64,000 nucleotides of DNA from Ceratobasidium sp. AG-K (taxonomy: Eukaryota; Basidiomycota; Agaricomycetes; Cantharellales; Ceratobasidiaceae), in the NCBI GenBank assembly GCA_037039685.1, contig JAWNGF010000001.1, forward strand, positions 3,658,001-3,722,000, in the 5' to 3' direction. The notes under the pieces were generated by a model, which saw nothing but the letters and a program-made list of their open reading frames with translations, was not told the origin of the DNA and did no database searches. This document shows positions 3,985-25,010 of the stretch, in pieces. Within the stretch, counting starts at the first letter, position 1, and every line of letters begins with the position of its first letter. The position numbers were made by a program, and so were the translations under genes.

Positions 3985-5254
3985 CTAGGCCTCCCCTAAA
4001 GAGCGTGACCAAATGCACGTGACCAGGTTGAAACCCAACCTTTTTGCTCCAAATGACTTGTGCTTGCAACACTACTATTTCTGCTGTTAATCGGGGTCGT
4101 ATCCTTGCCCTGAGGGAGGAAGGCTACAAACACCATGAAATTGCCACTCGTCTGGGCATTTCCCGTAGTGTTGTGTCCAAGATTCTGAAGTACAACAGAA
4201 AATACAATACCCCTCTTCCTTGCCCCCGCTCTGGTCGCCCATCTGCAGTTGATGCCCGTACTAAGCACAGGATTATCCAGACAATCCGCAAGCATTGTTT
4301 TGAGCCCTACGCAGCCATTGCTGAGCGCATTGGCTTTGTCAGTGGCCACATGGTTCAGAAGGTTGCCAAAGAAGCCGGATACAATTGCCGTGTTGCCGTC
4401 ACCAAGCCACTCCTCAAGCCCGTTACAATTGACAAACAGGTCGCATGGGCCCAGAATAACGACAGGCGGGACTGGGCAGAAGTTATGTGGACTGATGAGG
4501 TGCATATCAACACTGGGGAAAAGCCAGGGCGCCTGATGGTCACCCGTTGGGCAGATGAGGCCTACCTGCCCAAATGTGTGGCTTCCAGTTACTACAGTGG
4601 TTGGCAATCACTTATGCTTTGGGGGGCAATTGTGCAGGGCAGAAAGGGTCTGATCATCCGCATCGAAACCTCACCGTATTTGACGAACAAATATGGGCGT
4701 CAAACTGGTGGGGGCCTCAAGTCTCAAGGCTACACTGACCAAGTCCTCTCGGGACCTCTGTGCGACTTTTGGAACCAGCTGAAGGAAGAGAGGGGTTGCA
4801 AAATTTTAATTGTAGAAGATGGCACCCCATGTCATAAGGGACCGGCTGCCAAACGGGTACAAGAAGCTCTGGGTATCAAGCAACTCCCTCATCCCCCCAG
4901 TTCTCCTGACCTAAACCCGATTGAGCCAATATGGCGTCTCCTCAAATCGCGTGTTTTCAAGATCCCAGGAGCTCGACAAAACCCTCAAGCTCTTTGGGAG
5001 GCTGTGCAACAGGCTTGGGAGTCCATAACTCCCAAAGATATTGATAAACATACTGGGAAGATGGATGCTTGAGTACAAGCCGTTAAACGTGCCAAAGGGT
5101 CCCACACCAGGTTCTGATCATGTAATGGTCTTGTTTAAATGTATTATACACAGAAAATTGCACCTGGATTGCTGTGTAATGAAGTACAAGCAAATCTTTG
5201 CATGTACAGGGGGGCAGAGTGATCACGTGGTCACGCTCTTTAGGGGAGGCCTAG
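3985..5254 (+). mobile_element. Tc1/mariner DNA transposon, apparently intact
   Basis: A 1270-bp element with perfect 27-bp terminal inverted repeats (3985-4011 and 5228-5254) beginning CTAGGCCTCCCC. It is flanked by the TA target duplication at 3983-3984 and 5255-5256. It carries one full-length DD34E transposase. Perfect ends and an open frame indicate a recent, possibly active copy. Confidence 0.93.
4053..5072 (+). CDS. Tc1/mariner family transposase (DD34E)
   Basis: A 339-residue nuclear DNA transposase expected to cut out and paste its own element at TA sites. The N-terminal third has a helix-turn-helix of the paired type (EIATRLGISRSVVSKI, about residues 30-45). The catalytic RNase-H-like domain shows the DDE triad: D in MWTDEVHINTG, D in LIVEDGTPCH, and E in SPDLNPIEPIWRLLK. 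Exactly 34 residues lie between the second D and the E. An in-frame TTG lies 9 bases upstream, but the ATG at 4053 is the natural start. There is no intron, frameshift or stop. Both terminal inverted repeats are intact, so the copy looks complete. Codon use and sequence freshness contrast with the decayed repeats around it. Confidence 0.93.
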   Translation: MTCACNTTISAVNRGRILALREEGYKHHEIATRLGISRSVVSKILKYNRKYNTPLPCPRSGRPSAVDARTKHRIIQTIRKHCFEPYAAIAERIGFVSGHMVQKVAKEAGYNCRVAVTKPLLKPVTIDKQVAWAQNNDRRDWAEVMWTDEVHINTGEKPGRLMVTRWADEAYLPKCVASSYYSGWQSLMLWGAIVQGRKGLIIRIETSPYLTNKYGRQTGGGLKSQGYTDQVLSGPLCDFWNQLKEERGCKILIVEDGTPCHKGPAAKRVQEALGIKQLPHPPSSPDLNPIEPIWRLLKSRVFKIPGARQNPQALWEAVQQAWESITPKDIDKHTGKMDA

Positions 5255-6740: not shown

Positions 6741-8001
6741 TAGCACAACCTAGAAGGCCTTATAACAAGGGGATGAGCACTGATGAGGTGTCATACCAAA
6801 AGCGCTAGTATACATTGTGTGCTAGCTCTTTGCTTTCATCCCCACTTCGCTTGTGCTTGCTGCGCTTTGCACTCGCTCCGTTCCATCCCGTGTCTAGCCT
6901 AACTAAAGCTGAGAGTGAAGGCAAAGGCAGGCATGGGAGCAAGGATGAGGGTGGAACTGAGGGTGGAACTGAAGATGGAAGTGAGTGTGAAGGCAAGGGT
7001 GGAGACAACCAGGGCAAATACCAGGGGGAAGGTGATGGTGACAAGTATGAGTATGAGGAAACGGAAGCCAATTGAATGGCAAGGTGGAGTAAGAGATGCA
7101 GTGGGTACAGAGGCCTGGCAGTTCCGCCATTATGGGTTTGTCTATGTGCATGTTATGTATCCTTGACAAGTGGGCAATGTGGGTGTGTGTGTGGGTGTGG
7201 GTGTGTGTGCATAGGAGGAAATTCCAAAAGATCAGATAGTGCTGAGAGATGAGCGTGACCAGGTTGTGTATGTTGCAAGGAAATGGGTTGTGAGCTACAT
7301 AAGGTATTGGTGGTGGGAGCTAGAGTTTCAGATCTTACAATGGGAGGGGGGGGGAATTCATAGCAAGCAAACCTCACCTAGGCATTGAACAACTCAAAGG
7401 CACCTAGACATTGACCAACTCAAAGGCCAATCTCTTGGTCAAAAACTCAGGAATATCATGGTGCCTTGGGTGTCCCATGGAAAAACTAGTGGCCATGCAT
7501 CATGGTGGCTCCAGAGCGCAGAGGATATGGTGATAGGTCTTTGGATGGAACAGACCCTGGAGGTGCTCCGATGTAGATGTGGAGGGCAAATTTTGAGCCA
7601 GCAACCAGAATCAGCAGTATATGTAAGTTAATGTAGTGGTGTCCACTACTCGGCCCTTCTGTTGCAACTCTTGTGAACTGCTGTAACAGGATTTGAATTG
7701 GGTGAGCTGGGGCACCTACTCAGAATATCTTACCAAAGAGGACTGTGACTGTAGTGCCAACGGTGCAAAGAGGTGAGACACATGTAGAATGTTGAGAAAT
7801 CTTAGTCGTTATAGGTAGCTTACACTGTGATTGGGAGGTGTGCCAGAAGTTGGGCCATGTACAAGTGGCCTGATAATGGCAGAAGATGAACCTTGTGGTA
7901 ACATCAGGTCAGGGCTCTTGATGCTCATGGATCCGACTGGGTCTAGTAAACCTGCCCAATGGTCTGTACACTTTTGCTATTGGTATGTGAATCTTCCCTG
8001 T
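6741..8001. other. Non-coding spacer with low-complexity patches
   Basis: No gene recognised. 6900-6990 is a degenerate GAGGGTGGAACT-type minisatellite that creates spurious open frames on both strands. 7178-7210 is a GT-rich microsatellite. 7374-7425 contains two copies of a 26-bp unit ending in AACTCAAAGG. The last five bases, CCTGT at 7997-8001, are the target duplication of element A. Confidence 0.5.
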
Positions 8002-8417
8002 TGTCATGAGCTGACTAAGCTCAGACATTTTATTCTGATTTTATATCTTTTTTTCCGAACACTTTCCTTTTATGGTACAAATGTCCTCTGGCGCTTAACT
8101 TGTATCATGTGATGTATTTGTCTTTCCATTTGATATTGGTGATGCTTCCGGAACTTCCAGAATGTCGAGTCATACCTCTTATCTCACTTATCATCGGTTG
8201 TACTCGGCTTTCCCACACTGATAGATGATGACGTGGCATTGATCCCTCATGTATATAAACCCAGAGGTCAAGCCGGTTAACGACAAGGCTTGACCTCCTC
8301 TCCACTAGGACTTGCTCAATCAAATCCTCTAAACTATCACTATTCCTTGGGTTCTAAGACTTGTCTAAGTCGAACCCCTTAACCTTTATATATACCTAAT
8401 TTACCCAAGTCGGGACA
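8002..8417 (+). repeat. Element A 5' LTR
   Basis: 416 bp, starting TGTCATGAG and ending GTCGGGACA. It matches the 3' LTR except for one extra T in a run near 8048-8054. It contains a TATA box and a 10-bp inverted pair (8265-8274 with 8287-8296). Confidence 0.95.
8252..8259 (+). promoter_or_regulatory. LTR TATA box
   Basis: TATATAAA in the LTR. A start site about 25-35 bp downstream would fall near 8280-8287, just where the primer-site complement begins. That would make U3 about 280 bp and R-U5 about 135 bp. Confidence 0.7.
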
Positions 8418-8419
8418 TT

Positions 8420-8431
8420 AGGTCAAGCCTT
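8420..8431 (+). promoter_or_regulatory. Putative self-priming primer-binding site
   Basis: AGGTCAAGCCTT lies 2 nt after the LTR. It is the exact reverse complement of AAGGCTTGACCT at 8285-8296, which is at or next to the predicted 5' end of the mRNA. This is the arrangement known for Tf1-type elements, where the folded mRNA 5' end primes minus-strand synthesis instead of a tRNA. Confidence 0.7.
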
Positions 8432-8695
8432 TTAAAGCATCAGCCTCAAAGCTCCTGCTTTTTCCACCAAGTAGATAGAACGTACACGGGAAAACGGGCA
8501 TAGTACAACGGACGAAGAGCTATACTTGATATAGACCAGTAGTCCCACGTCGCTATACGCTGTCAGTGAACCCAATCGTTATCCTCTTTTGGGTCATAGC
8601 GGCTTTAGTCAGCTAAATACACCCTCACTCTGTTATACACTGTCGCTATCACGCCCGCCCAAGGCTGTTGATAACTGATAAGATCAGAAAAGGAG

Positions 8696-8703
8696 TATAT
8701 AAA
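8696..8703 (+). promoter_or_regulatory. Internal TATA-like box in leader
   Basis: A second TATATAAA about 200 bp upstream of the first leader ORF. It could give a shorter transcript, or be chance in AT-rich sequence. No other promoter evidence. Confidence 0.3.
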
Positions 8704-8889
8704 GCAAAAGCTTAGCGTCTAGCACCCTTCACATCCAAATCAACATCTTGAGGAAGCCAGATCCTCTCAAGCGAAACTGGAAAGTGGTCGGAGCACCACC
8801 CAAGTTAACACTCTTATCCATCAAGAACCACATCAACCCGTCGTTTCCATCAGTACGCACTAAAAAGGAACTAATTAGTAACTAACTAA

Positions 8890-9516
8890 TTAACCTTAAA
8901 AGTGTTCCCCGCATTTTTTAGCCTCTGCGAAGCAGTCTTTAGACTAAAGGACTTCGTACTTGATCTAGACACCAAAGTCGACGAATTAAACAGTCGAATC
9001 GAAGTGCTAGAAGAAGATCAAGTTGAACAAGCAGAGGATCTAAGGGTTGAACGTACCAGAAACGACGAAAACCACAATCAACTCGAAGCCGATTATCAAT
9101 CCCTCCATTCAAGGCTCGAGTTCATCGAAATTAACCTCGACAATACAAATAAGCAACAAGCCGATCAAGATCGTGTCCAAAGCATAAATCTAGCGGACAC
9201 TAATATCGAAGTCGAGCGATTGCAAGAACAAACCCGTGTCTTGATCGAAAACTGCGACCAACTTATAAAAATCCAAGAAAAACACACTCGAAAGGTCGAA
9301 AATCTCATCAGCAACAACAAACGTCAGTGGCGTACTATCGAAACCCTTAAAGACAAAATCAAGGGCAAATACTGTCATCAAGCAGCAGAAGTGCGTATTC
9401 CTATCAATCAGGATTACCGCCTTCTAAATCACCTTAATACTATCGCACCCAACCCTTTCCAGTGGGACCAAGACCTCGACTCACACAGGAACAACACAGG
9501 GAACAACTTAGACTAG
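8890..9516 (+). CDS. Leader ORFa: coiled-coil protein with no methionine codon
   Basis: Open frame of 208 codons, or 204 from the GTG at 8902 (A at -3), with no ATG anywhere in it. The product is strongly charged and heptad-rich over about residues 15-165 (for example VDELNSRIEVLEEDQVEQAE and RLQEQTRVLIENC), so it is predicted to be a long coiled coil. The amino-acid pattern is that of a real protein. The frame begins just after a branch-point-like CTAAC (8882-8886) and a T-rich AG (8913-8921), so a spliced start is possible, but no ATG exists upstream in the leader either. The next ORF overlaps its end in the -1 frame. No similarity to known gag or pol domains recognised. Initiation must be non-AUG or by an unusual route. 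Function unknown. Confidence 0.55.
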   Translation, partial: LTLKVFPAFFSLCEAVFRLKDFVLDLDTKVDELNSRIEVLEEDQVEQAEDLRVERTRNDENHNQLEADYQSLHSRLEFIEINLDNTNKQQADQDRVQSINLADTNIEVERLQEQTRVLIENCDQLIKIQEKHTRKVENLISNNKRQWRTIETLKDKIKGKYCHQAAEVRIPINQDYRLLNHLNTIAPNPFQWDQDLDSHRNNTGNNLD

Positions 9517-9713
9517 AGTCCCTAAGACTTTTTATTGAAGACGTTCATCGTAACTACATATACGAACAGTACGACGAACTAGGTCAAATCAACGCGTTGT
9601 TCCTGGAAGACGAAAACCTTGAATTGATATTTTTGAGAAGCTTGCGCATCATTAAAGACAGAAGGGTTCGAAGAAGAATCCGTGATATTTTGTACGGTCT
9701 GGGATCCCAATAA
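9438..9713 (+). CDS. Leader ORFb: short basic/acidic ORF without ATG
   Basis: Open frame of about 91 codons in the -1 frame relative to ORFa, overlapping it by 79 nt. It again has no ATG (the first GTG is at 9462). The product is rich in Arg, Glu and Leu and ends in a basic stretch (RRVRRRIRD). In the overlap, CCCTTTC at 9453-9459 fits the X XXY YYZ slippery pattern in the ORFa frame, so ORFa-ORFb fusion by -1 frameshifting is possible. The stop is 25 nt before the gag ATG, a distance compatible with leaky scanning or reinitiation. Function unknown. Confidence 0.45.
   Translation, partial: YYRTQPFPVGPRPRLTQEQHREQLRLESLRLFIEDVHRNYIYEQYDELGQINALFLEDENLELIFLRSLRIIKDRRVRRRIRDILYGLGSQ
9453..9459 (+). 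promoter_or_regulatory. Possible -1 slippery heptamer ORFa/ORFb
   Basis: C CCT TTC in the ORFa frame, near the beginning of the ORFb open frame. Only the heptamer supports it; I identified no clear downstream stem. Confidence 0.3.
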
Positions 9714-9738
9714 ATCTACCTCTTTTCCCCACTCCGAT

Positions 9739-11091
9739 ATGTCAAGAGCCCCATCACCTAGTCAAGGGGGATTTACCCAAATCTCAGCAACATCCGGACC
9801 CGAGGTAGTTGCACATGCAATCAATGCCTTAATAGACAAAGTGCGAAAAATTAACGGTCACATTAATGCCTTAAATGGTATCACTTCTACCCTAGAACAG
9901 GGAATCGACAATAATATTGCAGATATCCACGCAATTCAAAATCAAACTGCACAAATTGCACCCCTTCACCAATTAATGAATGCAGTATCTCAGTCACTTG
10001 CAAACCTAGGGGCAACACCCTCCACCACCGCGTCAACAACCACCCCAGGATATAAACTCAAAATGCATCCCCCAGAAGAATTTTCTGGAGATGTAGATAA
10101 ATTTGACGAGTTTAAGTCGCAATGTACCTTGTACATAAATCATACGTCGCCACAAGCAACCACAGAACAAAAAATCACTTATATCATGGGTTATTGCAAG
10201 GGGCCTGCCTATGTATGGATGCAACCTGGAATTGATGTAGACACAGCAAGAAGGGGAGCAACAAATTGGCTACACGACATGGATGAATTCTGGAACGAAA
10301 TGCAAGCTAGGTTTGGCGATGTTCACAAGATCGACCGATATAGACAATTATACAAGAAATTGATCCAGAAGAACTCTGTCCAAGATTATCTACGAGACTT
10401 CGTCACTTATTCATTGGTACTTGGGTACACTGATCGAGTACTTCGCGATGATTTCTATGATGGTCTTAAGGATGAAATCAAGATGGCCATGGTGTCACAG
10501 AACTTTAAACCCCACGAAGTGACAAGGACATTCAACCAAGTTCGCGAAAGAGCCCTGGAAATTGACTCCACAATGAATGCTATTAACGCACCAAAGAAGT
10601 TGCAAAGCCCACAAAGCACCACTTCGAAACAAAGTACTTCCAAGACAATCACAAGTACTCCAAACGCCTCATTAGGTCAAAGATTCAATGTAAATGACCG
10701 AGTCTTTATGTCAAAACCTACAGGAGGGGTGCAATACGGCAAAATCTCAAGCATTACCCGAAACGCCAAGGGCCGTCCAGTTCCACAGATCTCCTGGGAT
10801 GATGGGACAAAAGGAAATGTCCCTTTTGGAGCAATTCAAAGAGACACCCGAACCAGTAACCTCAACGCTCCTACCATCCAAACACCCAAACCGTCCACTC
10901 CTGCTAAAGACCCTAATGCAATGGACCTTGATGGAAAAGGAAAAGGACCAATGATCTGCTTCACCTGCGGCGGTAAGGGACACTCAGCAAGAGTCTGTCC
11001 TTCCAAGAACACAGCGTCAGGATTTGAAGCTCAGATTGAAGAAATCTCTTCAGACATCGAATCGGGAAAAGACGTCACCGAGGCTTATTAA
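9739..11091 (+). CDS. gag: Gag polyprotein of element A
   Basis: A 450-residue capsid/nucleocapsid protein that packages the element RNA into cytoplasmic particles. The first ATG of the predicted mRNA (9739) starts MSRAPSPSQGG; the open frame extends upstream without an ATG. About residues 120-260 match the retrotransposon gag capsid domain (QARFGDVHKIDRYRQLYKKL, then VLRDDFYDGLKDEIKMAM). About residues 320-380 look like a small SH3/Tudor-like barrel (FNVNDRVFMSKPTGG to ISWDDGTKG), which is an inference. A CCHC zinc knuckle CFTCGGKGHSARVC lies near the C terminus. The frame ends just before pol, which lies in the -1 frame. No stop or frameshift interrupts it. Confidence 0.93.
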   Translation: MSRAPSPSQGGFTQISATSGPEVVAHAINALIDKVRKINGHINALNGITSTLEQGIDNNIADIHAIQNQTAQIAPLHQLMNAVSQSLANLGATPSTTASTTTPGYKLKMHPPEEFSGDVDKFDEFKSQCTLYINHTSPQATTEQKITYIMGYCKGPAYVWMQPGIDVDTARRGATNWLHDMDEFWNEMQARFGDVHKIDRYRQLYKKLIQKNSVQDYLRDFVTYSLVLGYTDRVLRDDFYDGLKDEIKMAMVSQNFKPHEVTRTFNQVRERALEIDSTMNAINAPKKLQSPQSTTSKQSTSKTITSTPNASLGQRFNVNDRVFMSKPTGGVQYGKISSITRNAKGRPVPQISWDDGTKGNVPFGAIQRDTRTSNLNAPTIQTPKPSTPAKDPNAMDLDGKGKGPMICFTCGGKGHSARVCPSKNTASGFEAQIEEISSDIESGKDVTEAY

Positions 11092-11110
11092 GGAGCCAAG
11101 TACTTGGTGA
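11064..11110 (+). promoter_or_regulatory. gag-pol -1 frameshift signal
   Basis: In the gag frame, G GGA AAA (11064-11070) is a canonical X XXY YYZ heptamer. Pol lies in the -1 frame, which is open from 11028, so the overlap is 64 nt. Four nt after the heptamer, TCACCGAG (11075-11082) can pair with CTTGGTGA (11103-11110) as an 8-bp stem with one G-U pair. A short inner stem (GCT/AGC) and the gag stop codon lie in the loop. Confidence 0.65.
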
Positions 11111-11126
11111 TATATTAGCTAGTAAT

Positions 11127-14100
11127 ATGGATGAACTAGAAATCATGTCAATATCAAATGAAAACCAATTATACCTTGATTTCACCGCTCATCCACTAGC
11201 TACGGCTCCTGGTTCTAAGTCAGTCAACAGATCAAAAAGATTTTCTGGACAAGCACTCCTTGACTGCGGCGCAACCTCCTGTTTCATCAACCCTTCCCTA
11301 GCAAAAGAAGCAAATCTCCCCCTCTTCCAACACGAAAAACCCAAGACTCTGCGAGTTATAGATGGACGAGAAGTGTCGTCCGGAAAAGTCACCCACTATA
11401 CCAAATTTAAACTTGTCATGGGAACACATTCCAGTGAAATAGAATGTCATGTTACAAACATTGGAAGGCACCCTATCGTACTCGGGATGTCATGGCTCAA
11501 GAAACATAACCCACAAATTAATTGGAAAAATAGGACAATTGCATACACAAGCGAATTCTGCTCAAAAAACTGCCTAGAAGTCCCATCTACGCTCCAAATC
11601 GCAGCAGAAACCACATTACCAGAGGAATACAAAGAGTTCGCAGATGTGTTCGACGAGTCCAGATTAGAGGAACTCCCACCTCACAGGCCAACTGACATTA
11701 CGCTCGACCTCCTACCAGAAGCTAAACTAAAGCATGGTCCTATTTACAAAACATCCCCAGCTGAAGACAAAGAAATGAAGAAAGTACTAGAAACCCTTAT
11801 CCGAAGGGGACACATTCAGATTTCTAAGTCTCCTTTGGCTTCCCCGGTTCTGTTTGTCAAAAAACCACATCCAGAAGATCCAAACAACCCAGAATTACGC
11901 TTTTGCGTTGACTACAGATATGTGAATTCGCTATGCAAATTCAACGCAAGTGGAATACCTCTATTGGATCAATGGTTAAGGGCTCTAGAAGGATTTGTCA
12001 TTGGCACCACTCTAGATTTGGCACAAGGATTCCATCAAACCCGAATAGCAGCAGGCCATGAATGGAAAACAGCATTCAAAACTCAATACGGCATGTACGA
12101 ATGGAAAGTCATGCCCTTCGGTCTCAAAAACGCCCCATCAAGCTTCCAGTCCCTAATGAACTCCATATTCAGGGACATTATGGGGGTTTTTGTACTCGTA
12201 TACATTGATGATATCTTTGTTTTTTCCAAACGAGTCGAAGATCATCCAGGACACGTGAAAGAGGTGCTAAGAAGACTAAGGGAACACAAACTGGTCGCGA
12301 AATTGAGGAAATGCAAGTTCCACCAAACCAAACTGGAATGGGTAGGATTGGTCATTTCCAATAAAGGAATCGAAACGGATCAGGAAAAGGTCACGGCAGC
12401 TATGAATTGGAAAGCTCCCAAAAATGTCAAACAAGTTCAAGAATTCCTGGGATTCGTCAATTTCTATCGAAGATTCATTCAAGACTTTGCCGGCAAAGCC
12501 AGACCTCTGTACAACCTACTTAAGAAGGATCAAAAGTGGCAGTGGACAAGCAAAGAACAAGAGGCCATGAATGAGCTAAAAGAAGCTCTGAAAGTAGCAC
12601 CTGTAATGATGCAGCCCGATCAGAATAAGGAATTTTTCCTCGAGACAGATGCGTCGGGATTTGCCACAGGAGCAGTCTTATCTCAGAAGGATGAAGAAGG
12701 GAAATTACACCCTGTAGCCTTTCTTTCTAAATCACTAAATCCGGCTGAGCGAAACTATGACATTTTCGACAAAGAACTATTGGCAATAATTAGAGCTTTC
12801 AAAGAATGGTGGCATTTACTTCAAGGCACAGAAAAAGCCATTCAAGTGATAACAGATCACAAAAATTTGGAATACTTCTCATCATCCAAACAATTGAATC
12901 AACGCCAAATCCGCTGGATGAATTTCTTGGTAGACTTCAACTTCCAAATCTTGTACAGGCCAGGAAGCCAAAACAAAAAGGCAGACATTCTCTCGAGGCG
13001 ATATGACCTGGAACCTTTGGGGGGGGTAGAGAACCAAGTCCTCCTCAAACCAGACATTTTCATTTCGGCTATTACCCCAGACCAGGAGATCAACGATCTA
13101 ATCAGAGAAGCAATCCTCGAAGATCCCAGATTAGAAGAAGCCCACAATAAGCTGAGAAACGGAGAAAAAGTCAAAGATTGGGAATACAGAGAAGGACTCC
13201 TAATGTTCAAAGGAAAGATCTTTGTCCCCAAGGATGAAACCATCAGAAACCTGATATTGGAATCGCGCCATGACAATATTACAGCTGGGCATCCTGGACA
13301 AGCAAGAACATTAGAATTGGTCTCAAGAACTTACTACTGGCCAACCATGAAGAAATTTGTCAACTCCTATGTGTCACACTGCGAAACATGCATTCGAACT
13401 AAACCATCGAATCAACTCCCCACAGGACTACTGCGTCCTTTACATATCCCTGAGAGACCCTGGGAAGAGATCTCCTATGACATGATTGTAGGGCTCCCAG
13501 AATCAGAAGGATATGACGCAATCTTGACAGTGGTAGATCGGTTCTCCAAAATGGCACACTATCTCCCTTGCAAATCAACGGCCACAGCAGTAGACATAGC
13601 CAATATCTTCATTGCAAACATTTGGAAACTTCACGGCACCCCAAAAGCAACAGTCTCGGATAGAGGATCCACTTTCAACTCAAAGTTCATTAGGCATCTG
13701 TACAAACGATTGGACGTAAAACCTACCTTCAGCACAGCCTACCATCCAAGGACAGACGGACAGTCAGAACGAGCAAACCAAGTCGTTGAAATCTTTATCA
13801 GAGCTTTTGTCAACCATAGGCAAAACGACTGGGTGGCCCTACTCCCTATGGCAGAATTTGCTTACAACAACGGAATTCAAGCATCCACTGGCAAAACCCC
13901 TTTCCAAATCTGCCAGGGTTTCAACCCTAGAATGAACATCGGGGAAGAATCAGACTATACTGTCCCTGAAGCTGATGCCCATGCGGAATTCCTGTTGAAA
14001 GGATACGACGAAGTCAAAGCTGCCCTCATCCTAGCAAATCAGTCCTATAAATACTACTTTGATAAAGGAGCCAAAGAACCAGAAGAGATAAACCCGGGGG

Positions 14101-14525
14101 ATAAAGTCTGGCTTAATCATCAGAATATTTCAACAGACAGACCCTCAGTAAAACTCTCCCACAAAGTTTTAGGCCCTTACAAAGTAATGGAAAAAGTAGG
14201 AACTCATGCCTTTAGACTGGAATTACCAAAATCAATGAAAGTTCACCCTGTCTTCCATGTCATGCTGCTCAAGAAATTCCACTCTGATCCCCACGGCCGC
14301 GAACCCGCTCAACCACCCCCTATTGCCACACAAGATGGAGAGGAAGAATGGGAAGTCGAAGAGGTCCTTAATTCCAAGAAAATCCGCCGTCAACTCTACT
14401 ATTACGTTAAGTGGAAAGGATACTCTCATGCAGACAATTCTTGGCAGTCAAAGGAAGATCTCAAGAACGCTCCTGAATTGGTTGATAAATTTCACAAACT
14501 CCACCCCACCGCGCCAGGCCCTTAA
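11127..14525 (+). CDS. pol: Pol polyprotein of element A (PR-RT-RH-IN-chromodomain)
   Basis: 1132 codons from the ATG at 11127; the frame is open back to 11028, so it may be made as a Gag-Pol frameshift product. Domains in order: aspartic protease with active site LLDCGATSC (residues about 46-55; the usual S/T after the catalytic D is C); reverse transcriptase about 215-400 with VYIDDIFVFS; RNase H about 505-630 with ETDASGFATGAVLSQ and TDHKNLEYF; integrase zinc finger HHCC about 710-760; and the integrase core, whose D, D and E lie in YDMIVGLPE, TVSDRGSTF and QSERANQVV. A GPY/F module (VLGPYKVMEKVG) and a C-terminal chromodomain (WEVEEVLNSKKIRR to YYVKWKGYSHADNSW) follow. Gene order and chromodomain place it in the chromoviruses. 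All catalytic motifs are intact. Confidence 0.96.
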   Translation: MDELEIMSISNENQLYLDFTAHPLATAPGSKSVNRSKRFSGQALLDCGATSCFINPSLAKEANLPLFQHEKPKTLRVIDGREVSSGKVTHYTKFKLVMGTHSSEIECHVTNIGRHPIVLGMSWLKKHNPQINWKNRTIAYTSEFCSKNCLEVPSTLQIAAETTLPEEYKEFADVFDESRLEELPPHRPTDITLDLLPEAKLKHGPIYKTSPAEDKEMKKVLETLIRRGHIQISKSPLASPVLFVKKPHPEDPNNPELRFCVDYRYVNSLCKFNASGIPLLDQWLRALEGFVIGTTLDLAQGFHQTRIAAGHEWKTAFKTQYGMYEWKVMPFGLKNAPSSFQSLMNSIFRDIMGVFVLVYIDDIFVFSKRVEDHPGHVKEVLRRLREHKLVAKLRKCKFHQTKLEWVGLVISNKGIETDQEKVTAAMNWKAPKNVKQVQEFLGFVNFYRRFIQDFAGKARPLYNLLKKDQKWQWTSKEQEAMNELKEALKVAPVMMQPDQNKEFFLETDASGFATGAVLSQKDEEGKLHPVAFLSKSLNPAERNYDIFDKELLAIIRAFKEWWHLLQGTEKAIQVITDHKNLEYFSSSKQLNQRQIRWMNFLVDFNFQILYRPGSQNKKADILSRRYDLEPLGGVENQVLLKPDIFISAITPDQEINDLIREAILEDPRLEEAHNKLRNGEKVKDWEYREGLLMFKGKIFVPKDETIRNLILESRHDNITAGHPGQARTLELVSRTYYWPTMKKFVNSYVSHCETCIRTKPSNQLPTGLLRPLHIPERPWEEISYDMIVGLPESEGYDAILTVVDRFSKMAHYLPCKSTATAVDIANIFIANIWKLHGTPKATVSDRGSTFNSKFIRHLYKRLDVKPTFSTAYHPRTDGQSERANQVVEIFIRAFVNHRQNDWVALLPMAEFAYNNGIQASTGKTPFQICQGFNPRMNIGEESDYTVPEADAHAEFLLKGYDEVKAALILANQSYKYYFDKGAKEPEEINPGDKVWLNHQNISTDRPSVKLSHKVLGPYKVMEKVGTHAFRLELPKSMKVHPVFHVMLLKKFHSDPHGREPAQPPPIATQDGEEEWEVEEVLNSKKIRRQLYYYVKWKGYSHADNSWQSKEDLKNAPELVDKFHKLHPTAPGP

Positions 14526-14535
14526 GGGGGGGTAA
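14524..14535 (+). promoter_or_regulatory. Polypurine tract of element A
   Basis: AAGGGGGGGTAA directly before the 3' LTR; expected plus-strand primer. Confidence 0.85.
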
Positions 14536-14950
14536 TGTCATGAGCTGACTAAGCTCAGACATTTTATTCTGATTTTATATCTTTTTTCCGAACACTTTCC
14601 TTTTATGGTACAAATGTCCTCTGGCGCTTAACTTGTATCATGTGATGTATTTGTCTTTCCATTTGATATTGGTGATGCTTCCGGAACTTCCAGAATGTCG
14701 AGTCATACCTCTTATCTCACTTATCATCGGTTGTACTCGGCTTTCCCACACTGATAGATGATGACGTGGCATTGATCCCTCATGTATATAAACCCAGAGG
14801 TCAAGCCGGTTAACGACAAGGCTTGACCTCCTCTCCACTAGGACTTGCTCAATCAAATCCTCTAAACTATCACTATTCCTTGGGTTCTAAGACTTGTCTA
14901 AGTCGAACCCCTTAACCTTTATATATACCTAATTTACCCAAGTCGGGACA
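14536..14950 (+). repeat. Element A 3' LTR
   Basis: 415 bp, one T shorter than the 5' LTR in a T-run and otherwise apparently identical. It is followed by the CCTGT target duplication. Confidence 0.95.
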
Positions 14951-14955
14951 CCTGT

Positions 14956-16560
14956 GCAATTCAGACTTCTGCATCTAGATGGTCTGGGACGGCTGCACAT
15001 GGAGCTTGGTGTAGAAAACAGGATATCATATCTCAATGAATACTGCTGATCTCAGGCTGAAAGAAGCATTATAGTAGTCTGTAAACTTTGTTTTATTGGT
15101 TTGTGTGGTCTGTTCAATGTATTTCAGACTTTGCACTTGGGCAGTCTGGGACTACTGGACCCTGAGCACAGTGTGAACAAAAACAGATCACATCTCAGTT
15201 AATACTGCACATCTGAGTATATAGCTAGGATAGTGGTACTCTGAACATCAAAGGCTATTGGACCATGTGCTTTGTGTGATGTATTTGGACATTTGCATCT
15301 GGGGCGGTCTTGGACTGCTGGACCCTGAGGACAGTGTAAAGAAGAATTTGTTATATCTCAATGAATACTGCATATCCAGAGCTGAGAGTAGTACCAGAGT
15401 GAATTGAACACCATCTAGCAGCAGTGCATATGTGTTATGCTATATAATTGCAAGTTATGTGTTGGAGTGGTCCCAGACCACTGGACCCTGAGGATGGTGT
15501 AAGAAAGAATTCGTTATATCTCAATGAATACTGCATATCCAGAGCTGGGAGTAGTACCAGAGTGGATCAAACACTATCTAGCATTGTTATATGTGTGTTG
15601 TGCTATATAATTGCGAGTTATGTGTTGGAGTGGTCCCAGACCGCTGGACCCTGAGGATGGTGTAAAAAAGAATTTGTTATATCTCAATGAATACTGCACA
15701 TCCAGAGCTGAGAGTAGTACCAGAGTGAATTGAACACCATCTAGCAGCGGTGCATATGTGTTATGCTATATAATTGCGAGTTATGTGTTGGAGCAGTCCC
15801 AGACCACTGGACCCTGAGGATGGTGTAAGGAAGAATTTGTTATATCTCAATGAATACTGCATATCCAGAGCTGGGAGTAGTACCAGAGTGGATCAGACAC
15901 TATCTAGCATTGTTATATGTGTGTTATGCTATATAATTGCAAGTTATGTGTTGGAGTGGTCCCAGACTGCTGGACCCTGAGGATGGTGTACAAAAGAATT
16001 TGTTATATCTCAATGAATACTGAATATCCAGAGCTGAGAGTAGTACCAGAGTGAATCAAACACCATCTAGCAGTGGTGCATATGTGTTATGCTATATAAT
16101 TGAAAGTTATGTGTTGGAGCAGTCCCAGACCGCTGGACCCTGAGGATGGTGTAAGAAAGAATTTGTTATATCTCAATGAATACAGCATATCCAGAGCTGG
16201 GAGCAGTACCAAAGTGGATCAAACACCATCTAGCATCAGTACATGTGTGTTATGGTACATAATTGCAAGTTATGTGTTTGAGCAGTCCCAACCCATTGGA
16301 CCCTGAGGATGGTGGAGAAAGAAATTCATTATATTTCAATGTATACTGCACATCTAGCACTGGGGATACTACCACAGTGCATCAAAAATTATCTAGTATC
16401 TGTGCAAGTCTTGCCTTGTGCATTTCAGACCTTTGAATTTGCGCAAATTGGACAGCAAGGCCCTAAGCAGGGTTTTAATGCAGATTACAAAAGATATCAG
16501 TGCATATTTCACATTGGGCCCTGTAAGCTTCATAGCAGGAATTTGGTTCTAGCTGGTCTG
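14956..16560. repeat. 163-bp satellite array with 326-bp higher-order unit
   Basis: The marker TGGACCCTGAG recurs at about 15155, 15318, 15481, 15643, 15807, 15970, 16132 and 16296, giving a period of about 163 bp. Alternate monomers resemble each other more (GGGAGTAGTACC... versus GAGAGTAGTACC... types), giving a 326-bp dimer. The monomers at both ends (about 14990 and 16460) are more diverged than the centre. Short open frames repeated every 326 bp are by-products of the array. Confidence 0.9.
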
Positions 16561-18788: not shown

Positions 18789-19299
18789 TGTCACAACCTA
18801 CTCAGAGAAGGGTTGTTTGAGACTGATGAGTGGCTGTTAGGGCCTGAGAATCACTGAGAGGTTCCAAAAGATGTTGGATAACCTCCTCAGGGCAAATTAG
18901 AGTGGGTAAACAACAAGGTAAATTGTTCTTGGGATTCCAAGACAATTTCCCTTGCATTTTTTATAGCAAACAGAAGAAAGGAAGTGCTACCTACATGGGG
19001 AAAGCACAATGGTCCAAAAGGAGTAAGAAAGGAACATCAGAACAAGAAGAGCATGTAGCACATGGGCATCAATGTGCAGCACGCCAGATCAATCACAGAC
19101 TGGAGAATACATGCCAATAATCCACATGTACAAAAGCCTAAGCAAGAGAAGCAACAACAAAGTAGTAAACAAGAAAACAAACTATGTGGCAGCCAACAAG
19201 CACAGGACAGGGGGAAAACCACAAACAGAACAACAAAGGCAGCCAGCAAGCGCTGAAGGCGCAGCACACAGACCCTGGTCAGGAGCAAGGCTCGTGACA
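18789..19299 (-). repeat. Copy 2 3' LTR
   Basis: 511 bp in minus orientation, preceded on the minus strand by a G-rich purine tract (19300-19312). Confidence 0.88.
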
Positions 19300-19545
19300 A
19301 TGCCCCCCCCTAAAATGGACCATTGGTGGAGCATTGGCCCCCCCCCCCTAAATGGACCATTGGCAGAGCGTTGGACCATTGCCGCTTGCCCCAACCTACT
19401 TGGAAATTGCTGCCCCAATCAGAAGCAACTGGAGGCTCTGGAAACCATCCACAACTTGCCACAGGCTCCTCTGGAAGTGATTCAGGCTCTGGTCCAGGTA
19501 CTTCAGGAGAGGTGGATTGGGCTCTTGATTGTCTCTGAGTGCATG

Positions 19546-19965
19546 TCAATTGAAAGAAATGTGCAATTCCTTGTTGTTTCTGATGTAGCAGTGGTCTATG
19601 TACTTGGATAGGGAGACTTCAACCTCCAGTGGGTGGTTTTTGTAGCAATGCCAAGCAATGACCTTGTGGAAATTGTGGAAATCACGTGCAAGAAAATGGT
19701 CCCAGTGATAGAAGGGACCGCCACACAGGGAAGTGGGATTGTTGCTGCTGAGGTAGTAAAGATAGCCATAGCACGCATGGTAGACAATATTGGGCCCCTT
19801 GCGCAAGCAGGCACACTTGGTAGCAGCAGGAATGAGCCCAAAGCGCAGGTAGGGGATGCCTGAGTCCAGTTTGCTTTTGAAGCCTTCTGGCATGTAGTGG
19901 AGGTAGGTATCCAAGCTGCCCCAGCTGTTGAAAGGGGTGTTGTTGTGGGGGCAATGAATGGGCAT
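19546..19965 (-). CDS. Family F ORF3, copy 2 (truncated)
   Basis: 139 codons from the ATG at 19965 (MPIHCPHNNTPFNSWGSLD) to a stop after NNKELHISFN. Compared with copy 3, the tail beyond this stop is out of frame. The core motifs KLDSGIPYL, ATKCACLRKGPN, YGYLYYLSSNNPTSLC, FHNFHKVIAWHC and EVSLSKYIDH are preserved. The first ATG corresponds in position to that of copy 3, which supports it as the true start. Function unknown. Confidence 0.5.
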   Translation of the reverse strand: MPIHCPHNNTPFNSWGSLDTYLHYMPEGFKSKLDSGIPYLRFGLIPAATKCACLRKGPNIVYHACYGYLYYLSSNNPTSLCGGPFYHWDHFLARDFHNFHKVIAWHCYKNHPLEVEVSLSKYIDHCYIRNNKELHISFN

Positions 19966-20578
19966 GATGGACAGCAGTAGAGGAGTTTTCACAGAGCTTG
20001 GGGTGCTGGAGTGAGGCAATGGCTGCAAGAAGGCGGGTTTTGGTGGCCATGGACTTGCTTTTGCTGGCTGCCCTTTTAGCTGGAGGTAGGACACGTGGAA
20101 CTGGATCATCAGGCTGTTGGGCATCAGGAAAATTAGCGTAGAAGTCCTGCAGTTTGTCCTCCAACTGCACAAGATTGGAAGCCAGCTCAAAAGTGTTGTC
20201 CAGCGGTCCATACCCTTGCCAACAAACCCTGTACTTCCATATTCCATATTCCAACTTCCAATCAATCAGTTTGTCCACCTCATAAATCTCTTCCCCATCT
20301 TCTGTGATCAAAGGGGGTGGTTGTTGGAAGGTGCGCTTGAAATCAGTGTCCTGCTTTACTTTAGAGAGTAGAGCAACATGGAAAATATCATGGATCTTCA
20401 TTGTCTCAGGGAGCTCTAAGCGGTAAGTGTGGGAGCCTATGTGCTTCAGAACAGGAAAGGGACCATATTGCTTGTGATCCAGCTTCTTGTTGGGGCGTTG
20501 GGACTTGATATGTGTGCCTAGCAACCAAACTTTATCTCCAACTTCAAATTCTGGCATAGAAACTAGGTGATCTGCCAC
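19966..20578 (-). pseudogene. Copy 2 pol C-terminus: GPY/F and chromodomain
   Basis: An open stretch beginning in the integrase tail: FEVGDKVWLLGTHIKSQRP, GPFPVLKHIGSHTYRLELP, then a chromodomain (YEVDKLIDWKLEYG, KYRVCWQGYG). The frame runs past the point where copy 3 has its pol stop, because TGA there reads TCA here. Confidence 0.8.
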
Positions 20579-22664
20579 TCTGTAGTGCTCCTGAGTCTAT
20601 TTCAGTGTTGCTTGGACCTCCTCTATCACTGCCCTGAGTTCTGCAGCCCTACTCCCTTGCTTAGAGTGTAATCTTTGAACTTTTGAGCAATGGAATGCAG
20701 CAGGCTAGCAGGTCATCAGGGAAGCGCCTCTTTGAGTTTCTCAAGGAAAGAAACACTGATCATGGCAGAGAAGCCAGAACATTGATCCTCCCTGATCATC
20801 ATTTGAGGAAGAGGCTCTTCTGCCGTGTGATCTGCACATCTGGACAAGGCATCTGGTTTCTGGGACTGTTTACCTGGCCTGTAAGCAATGACAAATTTGT
20901 AAGAAGCAAGTAGCAGATACCAGTGCACATGTTGACAATTGAATGTCCTAGCATTTTTCCAATACTCCAAGTTCTTGTGATCAGTGAAGACAGTGATTGG
21001 CTGCTCACTTCCTTCCAGGAAAATGTGCCAGTGTTCAAAAGACTGAATAATAGCCAATAATTCCTTCACATGAGTGTCATAGTTCACCTCAGCAGGGGAG
21101 AAGCTTGCAGACATGAAGGCAACAGGATGCAAGCAACTATCAGCCTGTCTCTGTGACAGCACAGCACCCAGGGTGGTTCCAGAAGCATACATCTCCAGGA
21201 AATAGAGCAGCTTCTCATCTGGATGCGCAAGAGTCTATTCCATGCAAATTGCTTCCTTGATGGCATCAAATGAGTGCTGCTCAGCCTCTGTCCATTACCA
21301 GGCACCCTCCTTGGTGAGATCATTCAGAGGGCGTGCTATGCGGCTGAAATCAGGCACAAAGCGGCAATAAAAGTTGGCAAAGCCCAGGAATGCTTGAACT
21401 TGTTTCACAGTGAGAGGAGCAGGCCATTCCTTGACTGCTTGAACCTTGTCCTTTTCCATGGAGATGCCTTCAGGAGTGATCACAAGGCCAATATAGTTGA
21501 CTGATGTGACAAAGAAGTGGCATTTGGCAGGGTTGCAGAAGAGCTGATTGTCCCTGAGTCACTTAAGCACTTCTTTGACATGTTCCTCATGCTCAGCAAT
21601 GGAATTACAGAAGATCAGGATGTTGTCAAGGTAAACAATGACAGTGATGTCCAGCAGGTCATGGAAAATGTTGTTCATGAAGCATTGGAAAACAGCAGGA
21701 GCATTGCAAAGACCAAAAGGCATAACCAAATGCTCAAACAAGCAATATTATGTTTTGAAAGCAGTTTTCCATTCATCTTCTTCTTTGATTTGCAAATTGT
21801 TGTATCCAGAGCGCAAATCCAGCTTGGTAAATATCTTAGCATGCTTTAGTTTCTACACAAGGTCTTCTCGGCATGGCAGGGGGTAGCAATCTTTGATGGT
21901 GTTGTTGTTAAGGTGACAATAATCATTCACCAGTCTCAGGTCATCAAGTCCCTTGGGAACAAACATCACTGGAGCGCCTCCAGGTGAAGTACTTGGCCTA
22001 ATCTTCCCCACAGCCAGCTAAGTGTCAATATACTGCTTGAGAACAGGAGTCTCCTTGGGTGTCATGGATAAATGGGCCCCCAGGGGACTTCTTTTCCAGG
22101 CTCCAAGTTGATTTCACAGTCATAGGGGCAATGAGGCAGCGGTTTGACAAAGAATTCATTGCCAAAGACACTTAGGAAGTCATGAAATATTGGGGGAACA
22201 ATCTTGTGAAGGGGGGACACTTATGCCAATCTAGACTCCATGAATTTGTGTGGAAGAACCACAAGAGTAGACCAATTGATGTCAGGGTTAGCTTCTTGTA
22301 ACCAGGGCATGCCTAGAATCATGTCTCTGTCTCCAAGCGGCAAGCAGTAGAAGGTTTGAACAAAAGAATGTGAGAGGGCAGTGAATTCAAAGCGGCATTT
22401 GAATCTGATGGAGTCCCTGACTTCTTTGCCATTGATTCCAACAACTTGGCGTGCTGCTGGTAGCTCAGTGAGAGTCAGGGTGTGGCAACAAGCAAATTGG
22501 GGGTCAATAAGGTTGGCAGATGAACCAGAGTCAAGTACAGCGGAATAGGAGTCTGTGATTCCCTCAATATCAATAGGTAGAATGGGGGCTGTATTTTTGT
22601 GAAGAGCAGCACGGTACAGGGGTTCTGAAGACAAAGGAGGATTATTGGTGCATGTAGACACCAT
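20579..22664 (-). pseudogene. Copy 2 pol: protease, RT, RNase H (broken)
   Basis: The protease at 22221-22664 has VLDSGSSANLIDP. RT fragments at 21559-21741 carry the catalytic box as VYLDNILIF: the second Asp of YxDD is Asn, so polymerase activity would be lost. The RT thumb is at 21295-21483 and RNase H at 20716-21192 (ITVFTDHKNLEYW, VIAYRPGKQSQKPDALSR). At about 20600-20700 the RNase H tail joins directly to the integrase C-terminal linker, so the zinc finger and catalytic core are deleted. Several stops and frameshifts are present. Confidence 0.85.
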
Positions 22665-22675
22665 ACAACAGCACC

Positions 22676-24483
22676 CTAGACTTTTCCTGACTGCTGAGAG
22701 GCTTCCACAACTTCCTCAATGGTTCCAGCTTTTCCAAACTCCTTTTTGGGAGTTTCCACATGCCATCCAGTTTTGCAGTCTTCAAACTTGTGATTTTCAC
22801 TGCACTTGATGCATTGCCCAGCAGTGCAATGCTTGTCCTTGATTTCCTCGGTAACAAAGCCTGCAGACTTGCCCTGAGTGGGTCTAGATGTGGTGGGGAT
22901 GGTCTCTGAGGCACAGCAAGCTTCAAACAGCATGTTATCAATGAGGGAAGCAGTGGAAATGAGCTGATCAAGGGTGTTGATTTTTTGAGTGAGTGTGAAC
23001 TCAATCAACTTCTGGCAGACTTCTGGCTTGAGTCCTTGGTGGAATGCAGCCATCAGGGCTTTGTCTTGCCACTCCAGATCACCCATAATAATGCAGAAGT
23101 CAGTGGAATAATTGCCGTCTGAGAGGATTTGAGTTAAAGCATGAATCTTGCATTCTGCCACTTGTTTTGCATCAGGGTCTGACCACTGGGAGATGAATCC
23201 TGATTCAAAAGCAGTCCAGCTGATGAGGAGGGCATCTGCATCTCCATTGACAACTTTGTTGAGGTAGAACTGCCCCCAATTATGCAGCTGGCCTTCTTTC
23301 AGGTTCATCAGGACATAGGTGATCTTGGAATGATCAGAGGGAAAGGAAGATTGGTTGGCAAGGAAGTAGGCCTTGCATTCCAGCATAAACAATTTTCCTC
23401 CAGGGCCCTTCTTGCCATGATACTTCTCAGGTCTGGGGATCTTGGATTTGGGAATAGAAGCACCAGGGGTCTGGCTTAATCCTTGGATCAAAGTGCTCAA
23501 AGGAGCAGTTAAAGAGCAACCCAGAGCCTCTTCCATCATCTCCATGGCCTCATGCTTCTCCTGGGCTTCTGGAGAGCATCTGATGGTTGGGAAACATGGC
23601 TGATGTGGGTCTGGAGTAGGATAGGGATCTGGGGTCTCCCCACAGGAGCCAATAGAGTGGTTTGATTGATTGTCATCCTCCAAAGCCTTGTTCTTTCCTT
23701 TTCCCTGTCCAAATATGGATGGCAGAGGTTTCAGGGTTGCTTTGGGTGTTCACAAAGCGGATGGTGGAGGAAGAGGGGACTGCAGACGCTTGCAAAGGTG
23801 CAGGGGATTCACTTTTGATGGTAGGGCGATGAGGGATGCTTCCTGAGGGATCTTCTGACCCAAAAGGTGTGGGGACTTGGTAATTGTGCATAGTGGAGCT
23901 CCCAATTGCCTGAGGGCCTGGGGGTGTCCTCCACTGAGATGGAGGAGATCTCTCCTGACCTGGGGGGTGTTGCTGGCTTGGGTGCTTCTGTATTGCATGC
24001 CTGGTTGACAGCCCTGTCGACATCCTGTTCTATGTGGGCCTTCAGTGTTTTTTCTAGCTCCTGGATGCATTTCAGGAGTGTTAGTGTGCGACTTTCCATC
24101 ATTTGAGAAATTTTGATGGGTTCTTTGATTGATTGGTTGTAAATTGCACTGTAGATGCGCTCTAGTTTTCTCTGATCTTTGTCCATAAACAGGTGCATTC
24201 CTCCTGAGGTACTTTTGCTTTCTGGGCATTGGGGGCGCTTTATGCCTGGTGCTGGAGAGTTTCCCCTTGTTCCTGAGGTGGAAACTGATCGTCCCATGGC
24301 TGATTTGCGCTCTATAGAGGCACCGGAAGAAGATGACATGCTTGGCAAAGATGGGATTGAGAATGGGACTAGTTTTGCTGCTGAGGATGGCCCTAGGAAT
24401 GTGCTGGTTGATGGCTTGGACAATATGCAGCTGGTGAGAGCAATAGAAAGCCAGTTTGGGGCAATGTGGATGGCTACAGCCAA
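22676..24483 (-). pseudogene. Copy 2 gag, one frameshift
   Basis: The N-terminal part at 23809-24483 carries a short coiled coil (MESRTLTLLKCIQELEKTL). A frame change near 23905 and another near 23680 lead into the capsid part 22676-23683 (335 codons). This ends in the knuckle CIKCSENHKFEDC, a CX2CX3HX4C variant one residue shorter than usual. Capsid-like passages include FESGFISQWSDPDAKQVAE and MAAFHQGLKPEVCQKLIEF. Confidence 0.8.
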
Positions 24484-24500
24484 GTAAGAATGATTTACAA

Positions 24501-25010
24501 TGTCACAACCTGCTCAGAGATGGGTTGTTTGAGACTGATGAGTGGCTCTTAGGCCTGAGAATCATTGAGAGGTTCCAAAAGATGTTGGATAACCTCCTCA
24601 GGGCAAAGTAGAGTGGGTAAACAACAAGGTAAATTGTTCTTGGGATTCCAAGACAATTTCCCTTGCATCTTTAATAGCAAAAAGAACAAAGGAAGTGCTA
24701 TCTACATGGGAAAAGCACAACAGTCCAAAAGGAGCATGAAAGGAACATCAGAACAAGAAGAACGTGTAGCACATCAGGATCAATGCGCAGCGCTCCAGAA
24801 AAATCACAGACCAGAGAATACACGCCCATGATCCACTTATACAAAGGGCTAAGTGAGAGAAGCAACAACAAAGTGGTAAACAAGAAAACAAACTACATGG
24901 CAGCCAACAAGCACAGAACAGGGGGAAAACCACAAACAGAACAACAAAGACAGCCAGCAAGCACTGAAGGCCCAGGACACAGACCCTTGTCAGGAGCAAG
25001 GCTCATGACA
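24501..25010 (-). repeat. Copy 2 5' LTR
   Basis: 510 bp in minus orientation. The primer-site region next to it reads GTAAATCATTCTT on the minus strand, two mismatches from the complement of AAGAACAATTTAC in the LTR (self-priming pattern, decayed). Confidence 0.88.

Follow-up and report, generated by a model that had tools for sequence, protein, structure and literature searches.

Retrotransposons of the Tf1/sushi type are self-primed, the 5' end of their RNA being complementary to the primer-binding site (PBS), and Tf1 possesses one ORF. In gypsy, env is located downstream of pol. For the Drosophila gypsy env, the available part of PMC2585583 describes a start codon made by splicing, with AT supplied by the 5' site and G by the 3' site. 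According to the accessible portion of PMC5902531, RTBV ORFs I-III are long and without internal AUG, scanning ribosomes reach a downstream start across about 900 nt, ORF I uses AUU as its start codon and ORF II an AUG of moderate context, and ribosomes shunt over the leader. In BARE1 of barley, one transcript gives rise to different coding RNAs because a short intron is only partially spliced, as described in the excerpt of PMC3735527. Searches of open-licence papers listed no case of two ORFs before gag with splice-made starts.

The element, its copies and its expected RNA 5' end

An LTR retrotransposon occupied positions 8002-14950 of the window (the whole 64-kb stretch of DNA that was analysed), on the + strand like all its features given below, with two LTRs identical over at least 369 bp (8049-8417 and 14582-14950). 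The alignment of most copies begins at 8002, the first position of the 5' LTR (TG...CA, 416 bp, 8002-8417), and the start of the 3' LTR (14535-14950) was set by offset from it. The gag gene (9739-11091) held the first ATG of the unspliced RNA, and pol (11127-14525) possessed Pfam domains for protease (PR), reverse transcriptase (RT), RNase H, integrase (IN), an SH3-like domain and a chromodomain. Because of these pol domains, including integrase and chromodomain, the element is a Ty3/gypsy chromovirus; it also possessed the LTRs, the order PR-RT-RNaseH-IN and a gag with a CCHC zinc knuckle, the gag matches (DUF4939/Retrotrans_gag and the knuckle) being weak and slightly below the curated cut-offs. 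The open frames of gag and pol overlapped in different frames (11040-11127).

Other repeats were present in the window, including a tandem array with a 163-bp period immediately downstream of the element (15137-16414) and a second direct repeat pair of at least 300 bp, 90% alike and 5.7 kb apart (18841-24851), between which minus-strand ORFs for gag, integrase SH3 and chromodomain represented another Ty3/gypsy element. An ORF with DDE_3 and Tc3-type HTH domains (4044-5072) corresponded to a Tc1/mariner-like transposase.

The element is a young copy of a high-copy family. A fungal host, perhaps a basidiomycete, would be in keeping with its short introns and with this type of element. Genome-wide copy searches covered an assembly of 53.6 Mb in 17 contigs, in which the DNA search returned at least 40 copies with a leader identity of at least 95%. 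Candidate copies of ORFa, the first of two leader ORFs, numbered 273; every one of the 150 scored had at least 90% protein identity, and the ORFa frame was stop-free in 128 of them (rows counted by hand). Leaders were read in 71 copies (41 DNA matches, 20 further copies ranked high on the ORFa list and 10 taken from its diverged end), a non-random set dominated by the best matches. One incomplete leader (L041) was excluded from the ATG distribution, leaving 70 complete leaders (8285-9738). L041 and L026 (G000 C2, 6653.4-6658.9 kb) were directly consecutive leaders of the family, about 1.2 kb apart, as if copies had recombined.

The TATA box (8252-8259, read from the sequence) was free of substitutions at 8252-8257 and 8259 in the copies read, with one substitution at 8258. 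The expected RNA 5' end (8285-8296, AAGGCTTGACCT), 33 nt after the TATA box start, was complementary over 12 bp to the PBS just inside the LTR (8420-8431, AGGTCAAGCCTT), which forms the self-priming arm. All 12 pairs were intact in 61 of 71 copies, three of these by two-sided changes about 144 nt apart; as such copies may be related, the events may be fewer than the copies. The duplex measured 11 bp in eight copies (two with two changed bases, six others), 10 bp in one and 9 bp in one. Because the 12-bp pairing is kept through compensating changes, the RNA start is placed near 8285, as the pairing suggests, and reverse transcription is probably self-primed in a Tf1-like manner.

A copy of another chromovirus family in the same genome (L080, 898-1468) possessed a TATA box and, again 33 nt from it, a 12-bp self-priming duplex. 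Its 537-nt leader contained 0 ATG and 15 CAT, and a comparable leader ORF was not seen. As this leader is also ATG-free, the lack of AUG may be a general trait of leaders in such elements, one L080-type copy having been read; an apparently decayed relative of it (L081) had ATGs downstream of the PBS. Positions 8701-8715 and 8497-8508, in the non-coding predicted exon 1, were among the longest invariant stretches across the 71 copies and are perhaps packaging or other RNA signals. An Rfam search over 8000-9900 returned no match.

Depletion of ATG in the leader

The sequence-only reading had stated that no ATG lies between the TATA box and gag against about 20 expected, that some 18 CAT after the LTR make the depletion strand-specific, and that U3 holds ten ATGs, all of which recounting bore out. 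The region 8252-9738 contained 0 ATG, compared to 20.8 expected from base composition and 11.4 from dinucleotide shuffles, none of 5000 such shuffles being ATG-free, while CAT occurred 19 times vs 22.0 expected, 18 of them after the LTR. Ten ATG starts were present in the U3 part (8002-8251). On the + strand of the window, 8249-9739 (1490 nt) was the longest interval without ATG, the runner-up measuring 466 nt. The depletion spanned 8285-9738, predicted introns and exons alike. The earlier interpretation that it belongs to the transcribed sense strand also stands, and ribosome scanning to gag would be its natural reason.

The comparison of ATG with CAT in other copies, proposed in the same reading, gave a concordant result within this genome (n = 70 complete leaders), with means of 0.9 ATG vs 21.2 CAT per leader. 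No ATG was present in 36 leaders, one in 15, two in 11, three in 6 and four in 2. On the copy tree, the 63 ATG-carrying cases required at least 60 independent changes, and 20 of the 26 ATG alleles (57 of 63 cases) were transitions at CpG. Since these changes are separate and mostly at CpG, the leader ATGs appear to be mostly decay after insertion. In gag, 47 of 121 carrier cases held a new ATG by inheritance. For new ATGs at leader CpG sites this was so in 3 of 57 carrier cases; new CATs there were not inherited either (0/45), so that this class does not discriminate. At non-CpG leader sites, a discriminating but small class, inheritance was seen in 0 of 6 carrier cases for ATG gains vs 26 of 70 for CAT gains, and ATG gains made up 0 of 244 shared alleles vs 6 of 241 singleton alleles (P = 0.015). 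C-to-T changes at CpG recurred in independent copies (71 read; leader and gag), a pattern suggesting that the host methylates the DNA of the element.

Two constrained ORFs and predicted splice sites

Two ORFs were located between the non-coding part of the leader and gag. ORFa (8903-9516), a coiled-coil protein of 204 aa with its predicted spliced ATG, corresponded to an open frame of 204 codons counted from GTG (8902-9516), with frame constraint visible up to 9459. ORFb (9463-9713), a small predicted helical protein of 83 aa with its predicted spliced ATG, was part of an open frame of 91 codons from stop to stop (9438-9713). The sequence-only reading had described two Met-less ORFs of 204 and 91 codons; both lengths stand and both are genes, but the second was constrained in its own frame only from about 9460 on.

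Among shared (at least two copies) non-CpG variants, ORFa (8923-9435) possessed 13 nonsynonymous and 70 synonymous changes, with 65 of 83 at third positions, ORFb (9517-9636) 6 and 15, and gag 51 and 140, respectively. The resulting dN/dS values, rough variant-count ratios and not a codon model, were 0.05 for ORFa, where a low value had been put forward as a check, 0.10 for ORFb and 0.10 for gag. Shared non-CpG changes were synonymous in frame a in 77 of 92 cases over 8902-9459 and in frame b in 34 of 45 cases over 9460-9710, placing the switch of the coding frame at 9459/9460. Judged by these variants, ORFa and ORFb are real genes under purifying selection as strong as that on gag.

The predicted ORFa model consisted mainly of two long helices and that of ORFb was a small helical protein, both of low confidence (mean pLDDT of 65 and 67, respectively). 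No match at E <= 0.001 was obtained for the ORFb model against PDB structures or for the ORFa model against viral structures. ORFb gave nothing of weight against PDB sequences (two at E <= 1, with 0.75 and 0.76) or Pfam, where ORFa had sub-cutoff hits only. An env domain was not found by Pfam, and both ORFs lie upstream of gag and not downstream of pol. In viral contigs, three single-protein queries, with a reach limited to close relatives, found no relatives. In other organisms, only the protein fragments P0001, P0002 (without internal Met) and P0004 (V first, one internal Met) were found, together with a 45% gag (P0003).

The predicted exon 1 (8285-8852) was AUG-free and non-coding, its variants being even across codon positions in all three frames (constraint tested over 8418-8850). 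Its last base A and the following splice donor (8852-8858, cut A/GTACGC, the slash marking the splice site) were conserved, with A8852 in 71/71 copies and a donor reading GTACGC in 67, GTATGC in 2 and GTACAC in 2. This was the only GTRNGY in the leader upstream of ORFa (8853), a second one lying inside ORFa at 9391. The predicted intron 1 (8853-8902, 50 nt), indel-free in the 71 copies, contained the branch point ACTAAC (8881-8886, 71/71 copies), with the sole CTAAC of the leader (8882), and acceptor 1 (AG/TG, 8901-8904, 71/71 copies), 17 nt downstream of the branch A. Its removal would join A8852 to the TG at 8903 in an in-frame ORFa ATG with A at -3. With acceptor 2 (CAG/TG, 9461-9464; AGTG in 71/71 copies), located at the frame switch, the same donor would delimit the predicted intron 2 (8853-9462) and join A8852 to the TG at 9463 in an in-frame ORFb ATG that has both an A at -3 and a G at +4. 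The constraint of each frame began directly after its AG/TG. Because each frame starts at an AG/TG and the donor exon ends in A, splice-made AUGs are proposed for both ORFs, donor and acceptor jointly supplying the in-frame AUG in each case as in gypsy env.

Across the two strands of the 64-kb window, the strict pattern A/GTRNGY-CTAAC-AG/TG (intron of 42-90 nt) had a single match, located at ORFa, and a looser one (any CTRAY) had 11. When the upstream leader was shuffled with AG/TG fixed, a donor and CTRAY fell in range in 40 of 5000 shuffles, and a donor with CTAAC in 14 of 5000. Within intron 1, 2 of 20 signal sites were variable vs 13 of 33 remaining positions, a modest contrast (P = 0.03). 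Among host actin-family introns, two measured 47 nt and had the signals GTGAGT, CTAAT or TTGAT, and CAG; visual reading of a third gave CTAAC, with AAG as the acceptor. The signals fit the published fungal splice consensus as given in the available part of PMC5677156, where RAG/Y acceptors are a rare class (2.2% of Fusarium introns); the ORFa acceptor AAG/T belongs to this class, and the donor is not of the commonest form. An acceptor at 8920-8921 (TTTTTTAG), the first guess for the intron end, was dropped because 8907-8916 look coding, with variants only at ORFa third positions except one CpG singleton at 8911; the second family also lacked such an AG.

Concerning intron-less genome copies, the spliced ORFa junction had one match with two mismatches, which does not exceed the reversed-pattern control (2). 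For the spliced ORFb junction there were 0 matches, the unspliced donor stretch used as a positive control being matched 223 times. This absence is neutral for the splicing model or mildly against it.

A second, old family in the genome (12 matches found) possessed homologues of ORFb (41% identity over 75 columns) and ORFa (about 25% identity, colinear) upstream of gag, with a non-coding leader poorly alignable to that of the first family. Four of the five copies read had A/GTA, CTAAC and CAG/TG in frame with ORFa, with a predicted intron of 46 nt. Their donors were A/GTACGT, A/GTACAT, A/GTATAT and A/GTATGT, two of the four (GTACAT and GTATAT) being without G at +5. CAG/TG was present at the ORFb start in two of three copies. 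In L084, which looks chimeric or broken there, both start sites were absent in this form, and it was counted as a miss. Leader ATGs in this family, such as the 15 in L082 between 440 and 1867, would represent decay in old copies.

Alternative readings and proposed expression scheme

Initiation at non-AUG codons, as the sequence-only reading had proposed, would have some ribosomes begin at GUG 8902 for ORFa and at GUG 9462 for ORFb while others continue to gag by leaky scanning, as in RTBV. It is possible because GUG stands at both starts, invariant in 71/71 copies, each coinciding with an AG/TG acceptor. GUG 8902, with A at -3, was by eye the sole near-cognate codon between the in-frame stop at 8887 and the start of constraint, and the AUG depletion resembles that of RTBV in the accessible text (PMC5902531). 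However, GUG 9462 has a pyrimidine at -3, and such initiation leaves the conserved donor A/GTACGC and the lone CTAAC unexplained and gives no account of AG/TG starts downstream of A/GTA in two families. Initiation at GUG is unlikely, as AG/TG acceptors combined with a donor exon ending in A would give ordinary AUGs.

The frame switch could also reflect a single ORFa-ORFb protein made through a -1 frameshift at C CCU UUY (9453-9459), its ORFa part beginning at a spliced AUG or at GUG, and this slippery-type heptamer does lie in the ORFa frame directly before the switch. Its sequence varied, with another base at 9453 in 9/71 copies and at 9456 in 2/71. This very unlikely reading was dropped because RNA structure at 9450-9560 was not unusually stable (z = -0.09) and the frame overlap was absent in the one informative second-family copy (L085), in which the ORFa frame has closed at 1102, before that of ORFb opens at 1132. 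Splicing of ORFb to its own AUG would account for the switch without frameshifting. Routine removal of the entire leader by splicing, or a transcription start near gag, with the depletion having another cause, is extremely unlikely, since the depletion covers predicted introns and exons alike and the covariation of the self-priming duplex sets the RNA 5' end near 8285; no supporting point was found. A plain long 5' UTR avoiding upstream AUGs, with the ORFs as remnants, has a parallel in the ATG-free L080 leader of a different family, in which no comparable ORF was seen, but the frame-specific purifying selection on ORFa and ORFb contradicts remnants and both have homologues in a diverged family, so that its probability is close to negligible.

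ORFa and ORFb thus probably owe their start codons to splicing within an AUG-free leader, with the unspliced RNA expressing gag. The RNA would begin near 8285 and prime its own reverse transcription, and on this genomic RNA neither accessory ORF would have an AUG. Ribosomes would scan about 1450 AUG-free nt of the unspliced RNA and start at gag (9739), producing Gag and Pol, whereas removal of 8853-8902 would create the ORFa AUG and splicing from the donor at 8853 to 9462 the ORFb AUG. Each protein would then be translated from whichever AUG comes first in its own RNA, the choice among the proteins being set by splicing. Any AUG in exon 1, the introns or the ORFs would halt ribosomes on the genomic RNA, so all of these are AUG-free in the model. 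The sequence itself shows the depletion, the constrained state of ORFa and ORFb, the change of frame between them, conservation of the splice signals and the self-priming pairing, while splicing at these sites, use of the same donor for ORFb and scanning to gag are what the scheme would add. A spliced-out leader had been named earlier as a refutation of the scanning view; the leader would indeed be spliced, but only partially, and partial splicing appears to be part of the mechanism. On balance, the evidence leans towards the fuller scheme, in which one donor ending in A and two TG acceptors assemble two alternative AUGs, splicing alone sorts the transcript into Gag-Pol, ORFa and ORFb, and two diverged families share the arrangement.

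If true, this would be a clear natural case in which the genomic RNA lacks the start codons of two genes and splicing alone supplies both, and in which ordinary scanning explains why the ORFs are without Met codons and the leader without AUG. Fungal LTR elements may hold accessory genes overlooked by gene finders because their DNA is without ATG, and a Met-less constrained ORF starting at AG/TG would be a signature to look for in other genomes.

Comparison with described systems

The sequence-only reading knew of no LTR retrotransposon of this kind, which was too strong a statement, as the start codon of gypsy env is spliced; gypsy is likewise a Ty3/gypsy-group LTR element with a start codon at a splice junction, according to the available part of PMC2585583. 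However, the spliced gene in gypsy is env, whereas two small ORFs upstream of gag are concerned here, and, unlike in gypsy env, one donor would serve two acceptors (A/TG) within a leader that is AUG-free throughout. As in Tf1/sushi-type elements, the expected RNA 5' end pairs with the PBS, over 12 nt and with compensating changes, but two extra ORFs are present in the leader, in contrast to the one ORF of Tf1. The partial splicing proposed here would, like that of BARE1, split one transcript into different coding RNAs; in the excerpt of PMC3735527, the stop created by BARE splicing follows directly on gag, whereas the start codons proposed here would precede gag. AUG-free ORFs precede the main ORF here as in RTBV; for RTBV ORFs I-III, the accessible portion of PMC5902531 names no splice-made AUG, the feature proposed here for both ORFs. 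The splice-made AUG itself is already known; what would be new is the gypsy-type splice-made AUG in doubled form, before gag, and combined with a leader purged of AUG.
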